Shown here in pieces: positions 29,436 through 39,054 of a stretch of DNA of 64,000 bases. Source of the DNA: Halobacillus sp. Marseille-P3879. GTDB lineage: Bacteria > Bacillota > Bacilli > Bacillales > Halobacillaceae. Numbering within the stretch: the first letter of the stretch is position 1; each line of letters begins with the position of its first letter. Under the pieces are notes generated by a model that saw nothing but the letters and a program-made list of their open reading frames with translations, had not been told where the DNA came from and did no database searches. The stretch is from positions 806,001 through 870,000 of the forward strand of contig NZ_OESS01000002.1 in assembly GCF_900240285.1 (NCBI RefSeq), given 5' to 3'. The position numbers were made by a program, and so were the translations under genes.

Positions 29436-30338
29436 TTATAAACTTTCCTTCAGCCATTGCTCCCATTCTTTTTTTGAATTTCCAACAAGATAAGGCTGCA
29501 GGCATTTTCTCTCTTCCTCTCGAAATGCTCTATAAATATCCCCACCAATTCCAATCTTAAGCTCCGGATGTTTCTCCTTTAATGATTCAACCAGACGAAT
29601 ACTCTTCGGAGTATTTATTTTGCTTGTACAGGATAAGAAAACAAAGGCCGGGTTAATTTCATCAATTACTCGTTCAATATCCCGCCAGGTAGTGGTTTGC
29701 CCTACATAAACGATTTCATAGCCTCGACTTTTTAAGGCGAACGCAAAGAAAAGCAGCCCTAATGTATGTTTTTCATCGGGACCGGGTAGGAGCAAAGCTT
29801 TAGACTTAAACCCTTCAACAGGCATGCTTAACAGCAACATTCCTATGCGGGATCTTAAAAAATTAACGGCAAAATGCTCATGCATACTTGTAATCTCTTT
29901 ATTCTCCCGCATCGTCTCCACTTGTATAAGAAGTGGGCCAATTATGTCTATGAGTACCGTTTCTAATGTAAATAACCTTAAAGCTTCGTCAAGTTTACCC
30001 TGTGCCGTTCTCTCATCAAATGTCAGCAGGCATTGAAGGAACTTCTCCTTTGTGGTACTCAAGTGATTTCTTTTTTCTTTAGATTGTGGAGAAGAGGATA
30101 CGTCTTCACTATCTTCCAGCAGGGAAACGGCCTGAGAGATTGTAAACCCTTCATTAACTTTGTCAACTAACCATTTTAGCGTTTGCAGGTGTTCGTCGGT
30201 GTACAGCCTGTGGCCCGCTTCATTGCGTGCAGGTCTGATAATTTGATACCTTCGCTCCCAAGCTCTCAGCGTACCGGCTGGAATTCCGAGCAGAGTTGAT
30301 ACAGCTTTAATATTGTACTTAGGTTTCGCATTTTGCAT
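29436..30338 (-). CDS. MerR-family regulator with B12-binding domain (CarH/LitR-like)
   Basis: The 300-residue protein has an N-terminal MerR helix-turn-helix (about 8-75, TLRAWERRYQ). A four-helix B12-binding cap (about 95-172) and a Rossmann-like cobalamin domain (about 178-298) follow. Lower-ligand H191 lies in DEKHTLG, the variant of DxHxxG seen in CarH. The Glu-His pair is E154-H155 in SMHEHFAVNF, and GG is at 265-266. The position of the CarH gating Trp is Arg144, so light response is uncertain. It has its own sigma-A promoter and faces cotJ. Targets are unknown; carotenoid genes are not in this window. Confidence 0.85.
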   Translation of the reverse strand: MQNAKPKYNIKAVSTLLGIPAGTLRAWERRYQIIRPARNEAGHRLYTDEHLQTLKWLVDKVNEGFTISQAVSLLEDSEDVSSSPQSKEKRNHLSTTKEKFLQCLLTFDERTAQGKLDEALRLFTLETVLIDIIGPLLIQVETMRENKEITSMHEHFAVNFLRSRIGMLLLSMPVEGFKSKALLLPGPDEKHTLGLLFFAFALKSRGYEIVYVGQTTTWRDIERVIDEINPAFVFLSCTSKINTPKSIRLVESLKEKHPELKIGIGGDIYRAFREEERKCLQPYLVGNSKKEWEQWLKESL

Positions 30339-35435: not shown

Positions 35436-35693
35436 TTAATCAACGGCTGCCCGGTTTACGACCTCAAGTGGATTCCCATCTAGCGCAGAATTTAAGACCT
35501 GGCTTTCTGAAAATAGAGCGCATACGGCAACAGCCGCAGTCCACCCTGTAACCAGCCGTCCTTTTTCTATCTGGACTAAGGTTTTCTTCGAAATACCGAT
35601 CATATGCGACATTTGCTCTTGAGTAAAACCTGCTTCTACACGTACAAGCTTAAGCTTTTGCGATACTAACTTTTTTAACTCGTAGCGATTCAT
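35436..35693 (-). CDS. Small XRE-type HTH regulator
   Basis: The 85-residue protein consists almost entirely of a Cro/C1-like helix-turn-helix (about 8-60: GFTQEQMSHMIGISKKTLVQIEKG). A short helical tail with AALFSESQVLN-like residues follows. AAGGAG is 9 nt before the ATG at 35693. The frame is open for 72 more codons upstream but without a ribosome-binding site. It is isolated from the upstream B12 operon by a terminator. No target or partner is recognisable. Confidence 0.8.
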   Translation of the reverse strand: MNRYELKKLVSQKLKLVRVEAGFTQEQMSHMIGISKKTLVQIEKGRLVTGWTAAVAVCALFSESQVLNSALDGNPLEVVNRAAVD

Positions 35694-35904
35694 TCCCAAC
35701 TTCTCCTTCTTAACTCCTTCCCATTCTATCAAATTAATTTGTATTATTCTATGTAATCGATCCACATCCTCTTTCATATTAACTTGGTATTTCCTTAAAT
35801 TAAAGAGCTGTAGACCCAGGCTGTCGCGAAGTCCTGGTCTGAGACCATCAAGCGTGAATTTGCAGGAAGTTCGGGCGTACACCCCTGATAGCAGTTTGAT
35901 GAGA

Positions 35905-35951
35905 TGCAAGAAAGAAGCTTGCAGATAACACCAGTTGGTTATCTACAAGCT
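35905..35951 (-). terminator. Terminator of the B12-riboswitch operon
   Basis: AGCTTGTAGATAAC pairs with TTATCTGCAAGCT (one mismatch), and TCTTTCTT follows on the minus strand, about 18 nt past the ECF gene stop. Confidence 0.72.
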
Positions 35952-35968
35952 GAAACTGCTGTAGTTCT

Positions 35969-36472
35969 TTAATTTAATACATGTCTTTTTTGGTAACGAG
36001 TAAACAACGTGCCTAACACAGGTGAGAGTAAAAAGATAAATACGGTATTTGCTATGGCATGGTTAATATCCATTGGGAGCCCCGCTGCATAGTAGCCCCA
36101 AAAAGGCTGTCCAGCAGTATACATTGTAATAGAGATCATTAAGCCAAATAATATCCCGCTTAAGAAGCCATAGCAAGCTAAGCCCCATAAAGGGATGGAA
36201 GGCCAGTACTTACCTATTAAACCGGCAACCAGACCGATGACTGACCACGATACAATCTGCCAGATGGACCAGATCCCCATACCTAAGATTACATTTGATA
36301 AAAACGTAGTTAAAAAAGCCATAAATACTGCTGCCAAAGGGCCCAGCCAAAACCCTGTCATAATTACGATTGCAGTCACAGGCTGTATATTAGGTAAATG
36401 CCCCATTGCTATTCTACCCGTTACTGCAAGGGCCGCAAGCATAGCAATAAGGGTAAGTTTATATGTTTTCAT
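35969..36472 (-). CDS. ECF transporter S component, probably for cobalamin
   Basis: The 167 residues form six hydrophobic segments with the ECF S-component look: MLAALAVTGRIAM in the first helix is the type of alanine-rich motif used to dock the EcfT subunit. It lies 5 nt downstream of a DUF4430 lipoprotein gene and under a cobalamin riboswitch, so vitamin B12 (CbrT-type) is the likely substrate. The shared EcfA-EcfA'-EcfT module is not in the window. Substrate assignment is inference from regulation; the fold assignment is stronger. Confidence 0.82.
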   Translation of the reverse strand: MKTYKLTLIAMLAALAVTGRIAMGHLPNIQPVTAIVIMTGFWLGPLAAVFMAFLTTFLSNVILGMGIWSIWQIVSWSVIGLVAGLIGKYWPSIPLWGLACYGFLSGILFGLMISITMYTAGQPFWGYYAAGLPMDINHAIANTVFIFLLSPVLGTLFTRYQKRHVLN

Positions 36473-36477
36473 TTATA

Positions 36478-36882
36478 TCATTCCCAGGATTGAAAATCGA
36501 AGTTAATCTCGTCCCCTTCTTCTACCTCGTATTCATTAGCTCCTACACTTGCATCTTCACCATTAATAGTATACATCCACGCTTTTTCTTCTCCATCTTC
36601 AGCACGAATTCCTTCAATACTATTGATAAAGCCTTCCTCTTCTTCTATCTCATAATTGTCTTCCATTACATCCATTAGCACCGAACCTTCTTCTACAGAA
36701 TGTTCTTCAGTGGAAATCACTTCTTCCCCTTCATTCTCTGAGATTTCAACTTCAATAGTTATTTCCTGCTCTTGATCGGCCTCCTGAGATCCTTCTTCTT
36801 CCTGGCCTCCCTCTGATTGGCAGCCTGCCAGCAAAGCGGCCGCAAGCAATGAAATGAATAAGGTGTGAATTTTTTTCTTCAT
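36478..36882 (-). CDS. DUF4430 lipoprotein, transcobalamin-like
   Basis: The 134-residue lipoprotein has a signal peptide ending LLAGC (Cys about 21), an acidic Glu/Gln-rich linker (about 25-45) and a C-terminal domain. That domain has the DUF4430 pattern: SVEEGSVLMDVMEDN, then WMYTINGEDASVGANEYEV and a final GDEINFDFQSWE. DUF4430 is related to the cobalamin-binding beta domain of intrinsic factor and transcobalamin. GGGAG is 6 nt before the ATG at 36882. It heads the riboswitch operon and is a plausible surface cobalamin scavenger passing substrate to the ECF S component. Confidence 0.82.
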   Translation of the reverse strand: MKKKIHTLFISLLAAALLAGCQSEGGQEEEGSQEADQEQEITIEVEISENEGEEVISTEEHSVEEGSVLMDVMEDNYEIEEEEGFINSIEGIRAEDGEEKAWMYTINGEDASVGANEYEVEEGDEINFDFQSWE

Positions 36883-36933
36883 CGTAATCTCCCTTCCTTT
36901 TCGTATACTTCTAAAGCCCTGCGGAAATTTCAA

Positions 36934-36973
36934 GGAATAAATAAAACCTGTCCTTCCTAAGGAAGAACAGGTT
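36934..36973 (-). terminator. Riboswitch expression-platform terminator
   Basis: AACCTGTTCTTCC pairs with GGAAGGACAGGTT, and TTATTTATTCC follows. It lies between the B12 aptamer and the DUF4430 start, as expected for transcription attenuation when B12 is bound. Confidence 0.82.
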
Positions 36974-37054
36974 AAAGACAAACCAAAAGGACATGTTTAT
37001 TTAAAAAAGACCACTCGGCTGCCTCAAACACTCAATCCCCGAAGCTTTGAAACG

Positions 37055-37212
37055 TTTAATATTGGCAGGTCTACTGACTCGTGCATCCTTCTACTAAGAA
37101 ACCTTCCCATAATTAAGAATTACAGTGGTTATTTCTTTTCGTCTGCACTTACAGTTGCGAGGACAGTTCCGGCCTTACACCGGATTCCCTTTTCAGCCTT
37201 AGAATCACCAAA
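37055..37212 (-). ncRNA. Cobalamin (B12) riboswitch aptamer
   Basis: On the minus strand the leader carries the conserved parts in order: GGGAATCCGGTGTAAGGCCG, then AACTGTCCTCGCAACTGTAA, then GGGAAGG and finally the B12 box AGTCAGTAGACCTGCC at 37079-37064. These match the cobalamin aptamer consensus with small deviations. A TATAAT box lies at 37218-37213 immediately upstream. Together with the downstream terminator it should switch off the DUF4430-ECF operon in high cobalamin. Confidence 0.93.
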
Positions 37213-37275
37213 ATTATAATCTAAATTTTATGAAGTTCTTCGTTAAGATTACACGATCGACGTAAGAATATCAAT

Positions 37276-39054
37276 CTAAAAAAAACGTTCCTGATCAGGA
37301 ATAGCAACTGTAAAGGTTGTACCTTCATCTAATTTGCTGTGTACGGAAATTCTACCTTTGTGAGCTTCAACGATATTTTTAGCAATGGCAAGCCCGAGCC
37401 CTGTTCCCTTTTGAGAAGATTCTCGTTTTCTTGACTTGTCAGCTTTATAAAACCGTTCAAATATAAACGGCAGGTCCTCTTGAGGTATACCATAACCGGA
37501 ATCCGAAACCTCAATGAGTAATTCACCAGATGCCTTCACAGAAAGTGATACAACTCCTTCTTCACTCGTATGCCGGATAGCATTATCTATGAGATTAGTT
37601 AAGACTTGTTCTATTCTGTCTGCATCAATGGTCATTGCTGATTGATCGATATTAATATTCGAAGTCAGCTGTACATTTTTCTCTTCTGCTAATCCCTTAA
37701 ATTTACGGAGTATTTTTTCAATCAATGGCTCGATCTCTACCTCCTCTAAATGAAGCGAAATATGACCCGCTTCCATTCGGGCAAGGTCCAGCAATTCATT
37801 AACAAGTCTGCCGATTCGTAAAGACTCATCATGTATGATTTTAGCCAATTCATTTTTATCCTCGCGGGTTTCGGCTATGTCATCGACAATAGCTTCACTA
37901 TATCCCTGCAGCATCGAAATAGGAGTTCTAAGTTCATGGGATACATTCGCGATAAAGTCTTTTCTCAGCTTATCCAGTCTTCTTTCATCGGTCATATCCC
38001 GGAGAACAGCTACAGCCCCTCTAACGTACTCCTGATCATAGAGAGGTGTCATGATAATAACCCAGGATCTTCCTTGAACAGTGACCTCAGTCATCTGTTC
38101 CTGTTCACTTTCAATGACCTTGTCAAAAATCTCCTTCATAGGGGAAGGAAGCTCTTTTCGAGAGGCTCCGTTATTTTTAAGCTTTTCGTTATTTTCAAAA
38201 GTCCAGGCGTCCAGGTATTGATCAGAAGGAGGATTGGAAACTAGAATGTCGCCCTGTCTATTCATTGTCAAAACTCCATCTGCCATAGACCGTAATATTC
38301 CTGACAACTGTTCTTTTTCATGGTTTAGGGCATCGATATGGAACTTCAATTGACGTCCCATACGATTAAAAGCCATTGCCAGTTCTCCGATTTCATCGTG
38401 AGTTCGAATCGGGATTTTAGTATTAAATTCGCCTTTTGTTAACTCTAGTGCTCCTTTCCGCATTTTGATCAGCGGAGAAGTAATACGAGTAGAAAGGAAA
38501 AAAGCAAATATGGTGGTTAGTATAATGGCAATTCCCGCGCCAAGAAAAATAATTTTAGTTGTTTGTTCAGACGTCTCTTCAATAGTATCAAGTGACTGAT
38601 AAACAAATACAGCCCCTTCCTCATCCTTAAGAGGCGTGCCTACTACAAGTAAACCCAGCTCAGATGTTCCTAGATCTGCGACTTTCATTACTTCTTGACG
38701 ATCGCTTATTACAGAAGCCAGTTCCGGATCATTCATAAACCAGTTAAAATCTAACCCTGGTAATTCACTCCCGTCCGATTCAGAGATTAATCTATTCTCT
38801 GAATCATCCGTTACTACTATTTGACTGGAAGGGTCTTTGATTAAATCGGTCATTGAAAGAATTAAGTCTTCTTCTTCGTATTCAGATACCACATCAGCTA
38901 CTTTAGCAGCGTCCTGAAGTAATTCTTTTTCTGCCTCCAGGACATGATAATTTTCGAAAAACTCCAGAAGCAATATCGTCAAAATAAATAACACAAAACA
39001 AACGAGGAGAAGAATAGTGAACCAGAGCTTGCCTACAACACTTCTCCAGAACAT
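37276..39054 (-). CDS. resE: Sensor histidine kinase ResE
   Basis: ResE senses oxygen limitation and phosphorylates ResD. Its 592 residues have two membrane segments (about 10-30 and 168-190) enclosing an extracytoplasmic domain. HAMP (about 190-245) and PAS (about 248-355) follow, then HisKA with the phospho-His in ANVSHELRTP. The HATPase_c ends with NLIDNAIRHT, DSGYGIP and GTGLGLAI. It overlaps resD by one base (TGATG). Confidence 0.95.
   Translation of the reverse strand: MFWRSVVGKLWFTILLLVCFVLFILTILLLEFFENYHVLEAEKELLQDAAKVADVVSEYEEEDLILSMTDLIKDPSSQIVVTDDSENRLISESDGSELPGLDFNWFMNDPELASVISDRQEVMKVADLGTSELGLLVVGTPLKDEEGAVFVYQSLDTIEETSEQTTKIIFLGAGIAIILTTIFAFFLSTRITSPLIKMRKGALELTKGEFNTKIPIRTHDEIGELAMAFNRMGRQLKFHIDALNHEKEQLSGILRSMADGVLTMNRQGDILVSNPPSDQYLDAWTFENNEKLKNNGASRKELPSPMKEIFDKVIESEQEQMTEVTVQGRSWVIIMTPLYDQEYVRGAVAVLRDMTDERRLDKLRKDFIANVSHELRTPISMLQGYSEAIVDDIAETREDKNELAKIIHDESLRIGRLVNELLDLARMEAGHISLHLEEVEIEPLIEKILRKFKGLAEEKNVQLTSNINIDQSAMTIDADRIEQVLTNLIDNAIRHTSEEGVVSLSVKASGELLIEVSDSGYGIPQEDLPFIFERFYKADKSRKRESSQKGTGLGLAIAKNIVEAHKGRISVHSKLDEGTTFTVAIPDQERFF

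Follow-up and report, generated by a model that had tools for sequence, protein, structure and literature searches.

On the minus strand of a 64,000-nucleotide stretch of the genome of Halobacillus sp. Marseille-P3879 (hereafter the window), a cobalamin riboswitch precedes two adjoining genes, one for a lipoprotein with a DUF4430 domain and one for an ECF transporter S component of the CbrT type. We consider it probable that the two form a corrinoid uptake unit, in which the lipoprotein captures a corrinoid and hands it to CbrT, which uses a shared ECF module. When the cellular B12 coenzyme is low, the riboswitch would, judging from its architecture, let transcription pass the terminator. The lipoprotein, held outside the membrane by Cys21, has one beta-grasp domain that corresponds to the beta domain of transcobalamin; judging from fold and context, this domain would bind cobalamin or a related corrinoid and would deliver it to the adjoining CbrT. 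CbrT would then join the shared ECF module, encoded elsewhere, and bring the ligand inwards, as is established for ECF-CbrT of Lactobacillus delbrueckii. Such a unit would work beside a BtuFCD-type system in a host where one or more enzymes of corrin-ring synthesis are missing and several enzymes depend on B12.

Table 1. Features of the locus, in positions of the window.
Feature	Positions	Strand	Evidence
Cobalamin riboswitch aptamer (RF00174)	37227-37047	(-)	cmscan, full-length match 1-189
Candidate antiterminator segment	37043-36984	(-)	predicted pairing with terminator 3' arm and U tract
Intrinsic terminator hairpin of expression platform, 13 bp, then TTATTTATTC	36973-36945	(-)	hairpin -18.4 kcal/mol
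DUF4430 (transcobalamin beta-domain-like) lipoprotein, 134 aa	36882-36478	(-)	PF14478, lipobox, model
CbrT-type ECF S component, 167 aa, helical membrane protein	36472-35969	(-)	PF12822, sequence family of 6FNP

The leader and the lipoprotein

A sequence-only reading of this DNA had placed a cobalamin aptamer and an attenuator ahead of the genes, and both are there. The aptamer scores 113.7 bits with the RF00174 covariance model against a gathering cut-off of 31.5 (E 1e-27), and it starts 15 nt past the end of the interval that was first noted (35969-37212). The stem of the terminator contains 6 G-C pairs and is followed by a U-rich tail, and the 117 nt 3' of the aptamer fold with a z score of -5.35 against dinucleotide shuffles. 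For the candidate antiterminator, pairing with the 3' arm of the terminator and the U tract is predicted at -22.5 kcal/mol from this single sequence. Of 80 relatives, 48 have a terminator-like hairpin within the 230 nt that precede the estimated start; single-base shuffling gives 0.4 of 80. We infer from this layout that the leader is a transcriptional attenuator and that the state favoured by B12 is the closed one, adenosylcobalamin presumably shutting the leader. No sigma-70-type promoter was found in 36850-37350.

The first gene was said in the same reading to encode a Cys-lipidated DUF4430 protein. Its product has a LAGC lipobox, from which a signal peptide (residues 1-20) and the lipid-bearing residue Cys21 are read; this cysteine is invariant in 62 aligned sequences. 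An acidic linker follows, and then a DUF4430 domain at about residues 40-133 (PF14478, 76.4 bits against a cut-off of 23.8). The structural model, made from 62 sequences, is confident at residues 41-130 (block means of 93-98) and runs strand, strand, helix, hairpin, strand, strand. With its helix at 69-76 and strands at 79-82 and 85-89 it is a beta-grasp with a beta-hairpin after the helix, the mark of the transcobalamin clade (Burroughs et al., PMC1796856). A Foldseek search with the model bears out the kinship to the beta domain of transcobalamin and intrinsic factor on which the sequence-only reading had relied: all 19 matches at E <= 0.001 are to 3u7z or to transcobalamin, haptocorrin or intrinsic factor. 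Two of them come from the human transcobalamin beta domain in isolation, once in the apo form and once with cyanocobalamin (5np4). The structure 3u7z is of a bacterial protein that is also matched by the sequence profile of the lipoprotein; similarity to haptocorrin by sequence is weak (E 0.011 for a profile of 22 rows and 1.4 for the single sequence). In a transcobalamin-like beta domain, a hydrophobic residue of the hairpin would be expected to stack on the cobalamin base. Phe85 of the lipoprotein, in the hairpin, is a candidate for this role; among the 62 aligned sequences the position is Phe 59 times and Tyr 3 times. From fold and context, corrinoid binding by the lipoprotein is quite likely. 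Among the papers listed by searches of the open-licence PMC literature we found neither binding data for any bacterial DUF4430 domain nor a bench study of a bacterial DUF4430 protein; a DUF4430 paper found there (PMC4350170) concerns fish proteins.

The very acidic linker had been thought to fit a salty habitat. Asp and Glu make up 36% of the mature lipoprotein, the highest value among the 61 of 62 aligned sequences that have a script-found lipobox (median 27%), most of which come from salt-tolerant genera. The acidity thus fits the remark, on a small comparison in which the nearest named relatives are themselves Halobacillus. Four DUF4430 relatives from lactic-acid-bacterial plasmids are far less acidic, with D+E values of 7, 20, 15 and 15%; their genes are among the loci L193 to L197 (L193:335-739, L194:5556-5963, L195:3593-3982 and L197:4500-4892). 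Their low acidity, set against that of the Halobacillus group, is possibly a salt signature in a surface protein, and the contrary view that the linker is uninformative on salt was dropped after this comparison.

The S component and its pairing with DUF4430 across genomes

The second gene begins 5 nt after the first, on the same strand, as had been noted, and its product is an S component by PF12822 (40.7 bits against a cut-off of 30.7). Which vitamin it serves is indicated by its sequence. In a phmmer search of 177,635 distinct PDB sequences the single significant match is 6FNP chain A (E 1.4e-16), and with a profile of 41 S-component sequences 6FNP comes out at E 3.2e-36 and the second-best match at E 2.4. 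The 6FNP structure shows ECF-CbrT from L. delbrueckii, a transporter of cobalamin and cobinamide (PMC5997447). Six S components of the CbrT type from elsewhere score 108-157 bits with the same profile. In Enterococcus durans the S component is already annotated as "cobalamin ECF transporter". Clustering with another vitamin family, which the sequence-only reading had named as something that would refute its B12 scavenging pair, is not what was found by sequence. The protein does pass the riboflavin S-component family PF07155 (30.6 against 26.7 bits), and fold comparison is non-specific: the AlphaFold2 model (pLDDT 90.5) has an S-component fold, yields no Foldseek match at E <= 0.001, and among the matches listed (50 of 73) meets riboflavin, folate, thiamin, pantothenate and biotin S components, with 6FNP absent among them, so that the fold does not identify the vitamin. 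The idea that this is another vitamin's S component, or the alpha-ribazole transporter CblT, is nevertheless very improbable. Our S-component profiles match none of the other vitamins' S components in the PDB up to E 10, and the protein passes none of the NCBIfam vitamin models. CblT was rejected on the score of plasmid pMF1298-5, where the profile gives 115 bits to CbrT and 8 bits to CblT, the latter identified by matching the gene order in PMC6722938 to the annotation. The same plasmid has, at L196:5560-6612, a gene annotated "fucose-binding lectin II" between its CbrT-type S component and its DUF4430 gene. The CbrT assignment rests on sequence and context, and on that footing we are highly confident that the S component takes up a corrinoid.

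It had been proposed that DUF4430 be surveyed for co-occurrence with CbrT-like S components under B12 riboswitches, and the survey shows near-perfect co-occurrence, mostly of adjacent genes and mostly behind a riboswitch. A scan of named genomes gave 227 relatives of the S component. Among the best 80 of these 227, a DUF4430 gene is directly upstream in 80 of 80, at gaps of -23 to 8 nt, and RF00174 is in the locus in 76 (20, 20, 18 and 18 per 20; those without it are L133, L147, L157 and L163). Since they belong mostly to Halobacillus, Oceanobacillus, Virgibacillus and their kin, the 80 loci are not independent. One of them, in Virgibacillus senegalensis, has a second DUF4430 frame of equal score downstream of CbrT (L130:3871-4287), apparently a duplication.

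Of 299 genomes surveyed in the order, 114 have the S component and 115 have DUF4430; the former set lies wholly within the latter, and one genome (G053) has DUF4430 alone. RF00174 occurs within the stretch at all of the 30 best S loci at this level, and at ten further DUF4430 loci it is within about 3 kb in 4 and not in the other 6. Where S genes were compared by coordinates (n=73, apart from another 44 S rows, of which 43 had longer frames), DUF4430 is directly upstream in 67, downstream within 600 nt in 4 and elsewhere in the genome in 2. BioY, another S component, served as a control and is present in 295 of the 299 genomes; the distribution of DUF4430 is therefore not just that of ECF S components in general.

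At the level of the phylum (398 genomes, at most nine candidates scored in each), an S threshold of E <= 1e-10 gives 118 genomes with both, 3 with the S component alone, 8 with DUF4430 alone and 269 with neither. At E <= 1e-3 the corresponding numbers are 121, 38, 5 and 234, and the S matches so added are weak and probably to other S families. All of these co-occurrence counts share phylogeny, and, against the proposed reading, a DUF4430 match is missing from 3 of the 121 genomes whose S match is strong (E <= 1e-10).

The gene neighbours vary in other loci. Twenty stretches with variant arrangements were fetched, and 12 (L073-L084) were picked for DUF4430 or S matches in longer frames. By frame length and profile these have a long operon for a large surface-type protein, a DUF4430-type protein, a membrane-type protein of 290-300 aa, a double ABC ATPase and the S component, the large or the second protein falling below the profile cut-off in some. 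Pfam was run on one of the long operons, L073. Its membrane protein is CbiQ/EcfT-like, while its surface protein combines S-layer anchors and three DUF4430 stretches with an alpha/alpha toroid (Prenyltrans) domain and so has, in its predicted make-up, both halves of animal transcobalamin. In another locus (L088) the pair lies between genes for class II ribonucleotide reductase and cobalamin adenosyltransferase, and on plasmid pLp900-2 nrdJ, the adenosyltransferase, DUF4430 and the S component stand in a row.

Adjacency and co-occurrence would suit any obligate partner, and the S component has itself been described as the binding protein of ECF transporters (PMC5997447). The lipoprotein might then carry no B12 and instead help to assemble or stabilise the S component, or hold it closed like a lid once it is loaded. 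We think this unlikely: the lipoprotein has the fold of a known cobalamin-binding domain that binds cyanocobalamin on its own (PMC5599065), and the transcobalamin make-up of the L073 surface protein fits capture better than assembly.

B12 functions and surroundings in the host genome

Among the best 80 of the 227 named relatives the closest to the S component, at 87% identity, is from Halobacillus andaensis; the source genome's own record may be excluded from this comparison. The source genome has six B12 riboswitches (RF00174), one of them before the lipoprotein/S pair. A second precedes a BtuF-like, BtuC-like and BtuD-CbiZ set, in which CbiZ is fused to the ATPase, together with cbiB, a cobU-like gene and cobQ; the names BtuF, BtuC, BtuD and CobU come from best match and context, at scores below the NCBIfam cut-offs. 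Further targets are metE, nrdE with nrdF, a citrate-synthase-family gene with prpD and prpB, and a 4HBT thioesterase. In the last case the riboswitch (contig C9, L007:2227-2412) is upstream of a gene at 2508-2981, and such a thioesterase is apparently an unusual target for a B12 riboswitch. The genome also encodes two methylmalonyl-CoA-mutase-type proteins, one NrdJ over the cut-off, and five B12-binding matches over the cut-off, one of which, in a frame of 1164 aa, is probably MetH. CbiC, the sole corrin-ring gene searched for, was not found in the genome, and de novo corrin synthesis is therefore unlikely.

A CbiQ/EcfT gene (176.8 bits) with an adjoining ABC ATPase gene was found by Pfam on contig C2, where a second, cut ATPase and a truA-like gene were read by eye. 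This shared ECF module is encoded away from the pair, as in group II ECF transporters, and the S component of the pair would be expected to use it.

With a riboswitch-preceded BtuFCD-type set in the same cell, accompanied by a CbiZ-ATPase fusion and by cbiB, the cobU-like gene and cobQ for salvage, the pair might take up another corrinoid or precursor, such as cobinamide or pseudo-B12, and so serve specificity, the BtuFCD-type system being the main route for cobalamin. Import of cobinamide by ECF-CbrT as well (PMC5997447) agrees with this, but no sequence feature favours one corrinoid over another, and the company of NrdJ and adenosyltransferase on pLp900-2 fits cobalamin uptake for the coenzyme. 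We hold such a division of labour to be rather improbable, and prefer the broader reading in which the pair captures and imports cobalamin or a related corrinoid.

Around the pair, a stretch that abuts the CbrT stop codon (35785-35985) has near-inverted AT-rich ends, read by eye, and is matched in part, over 45-52 bp, at three other places in the genome; it is possibly the remnant of a small repeat element. No described RNA element was found between the S component and the ferredoxin gene, two Rfam matches there being far below their cut-offs. An open frame downstream of the pair (35436-35909, minus strand) has a short XRE-type helix-turn-helix (PF12844) in its 3' part and no visible link to B12. 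Farther along, a MerR-type regulator (29436-30338, minus strand) has B12-binding_2 and B12-binding domains, and we take it to resemble the light-sensing CarH/LitR group.

Comparison with known systems

The central idea is already in print: in 2007 Burroughs et al. (PMC1796856) proposed B12 scavenging by transcobalamin-like proteins encoded beside CbiO/CbiQ-type genes, and the characterisation of ECF-CbrT followed in 2018. Their transcobalamin-like clade of the SLBB beta-grasp superfamily resembles the present case in its secreted or surface domains, its occurrence in low-GC Gram-positives, its predicted role in B12 scavenging, its operons with genes for a CbiO-like ATPase and a CbiQ-like membrane protein, and the hairpin after the helix. 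The form in the window differs as a single-domain lipoprotein beside an S component only, with the ECF module elsewhere; the words riboswitch and lipoprotein are absent from the main text of that paper.

ECF-CbrT of L. delbrueckii (Santos et al. 2018, PMC5997447, 6FNP) has an S component of the same sequence family as the one in the window, and its group II ECF module is common to several S components. A gene named cbrS lies beside cbrT there, and because of the order nrdJ, adenosyltransferase, DUF4430, S component on pLp900-2 it is plausible, by analogy, that cbrS is a DUF4430 gene. The lipoprotein may not be strictly needed, since this transporter moves cobalamin and the main text that describes it contains neither "lipoprotein" nor "DUF" (nor "riboswitch"). 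We found no report of near-obligate DUF4430-CbrT pairing in the open-licence PMC literature. Beyond BtuFCD and CbrT, Gram-positive B12 uptake is little known, and the fact that CbrT pairs almost perfectly with a transcobalamin-type lipoprotein suggests that work on CbrT has left out its usual partner. The pair offers a small, soluble system in which to ask, clearly and cheaply, whether an external binding protein can serve an ECF transporter.

The human transcobalamin beta domain (PMC5599065, 5NO0 and 5NP4) shares the fold of the lipoprotein model. When the transcobalamin domains are expressed apart their affinity is lower, the beta domain being shown with ligand, and in the animal protein an additional alpha domain completes the binding site and raises the affinity to the sub-picomolar range (PMC5599065); the lipoprotein in the window is without an alpha domain. 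On the usual view, ligand binding in an ECF transporter falls to the S component by itself. A more speculative extension, which we offer as a conjecture that is less probable than not, is that the CbrT-type ECF transporters of many Gram-positives have an obligate extracytoplasmic binding protein, that lipoprotein and CbrT together enclose B12 with CbrT in the place of the transcobalamin alpha domain, and that animal transcobalamin was built on half of a bacterial hand-off complex. The pair also offers a test of the 2007 proposal that animal B12 carriers derive from such bacterial proteins.

The role proposed here for the lipoprotein is that of BtuG of Bacteroides (PMC6143338), a lipoprotein at the cell surface that picks up B12 on behalf of a transporter in the membrane. 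Unlike the pair in the window, BtuG works with BtuB in a Gram-negative cell, and the two systems are likened by role alone.
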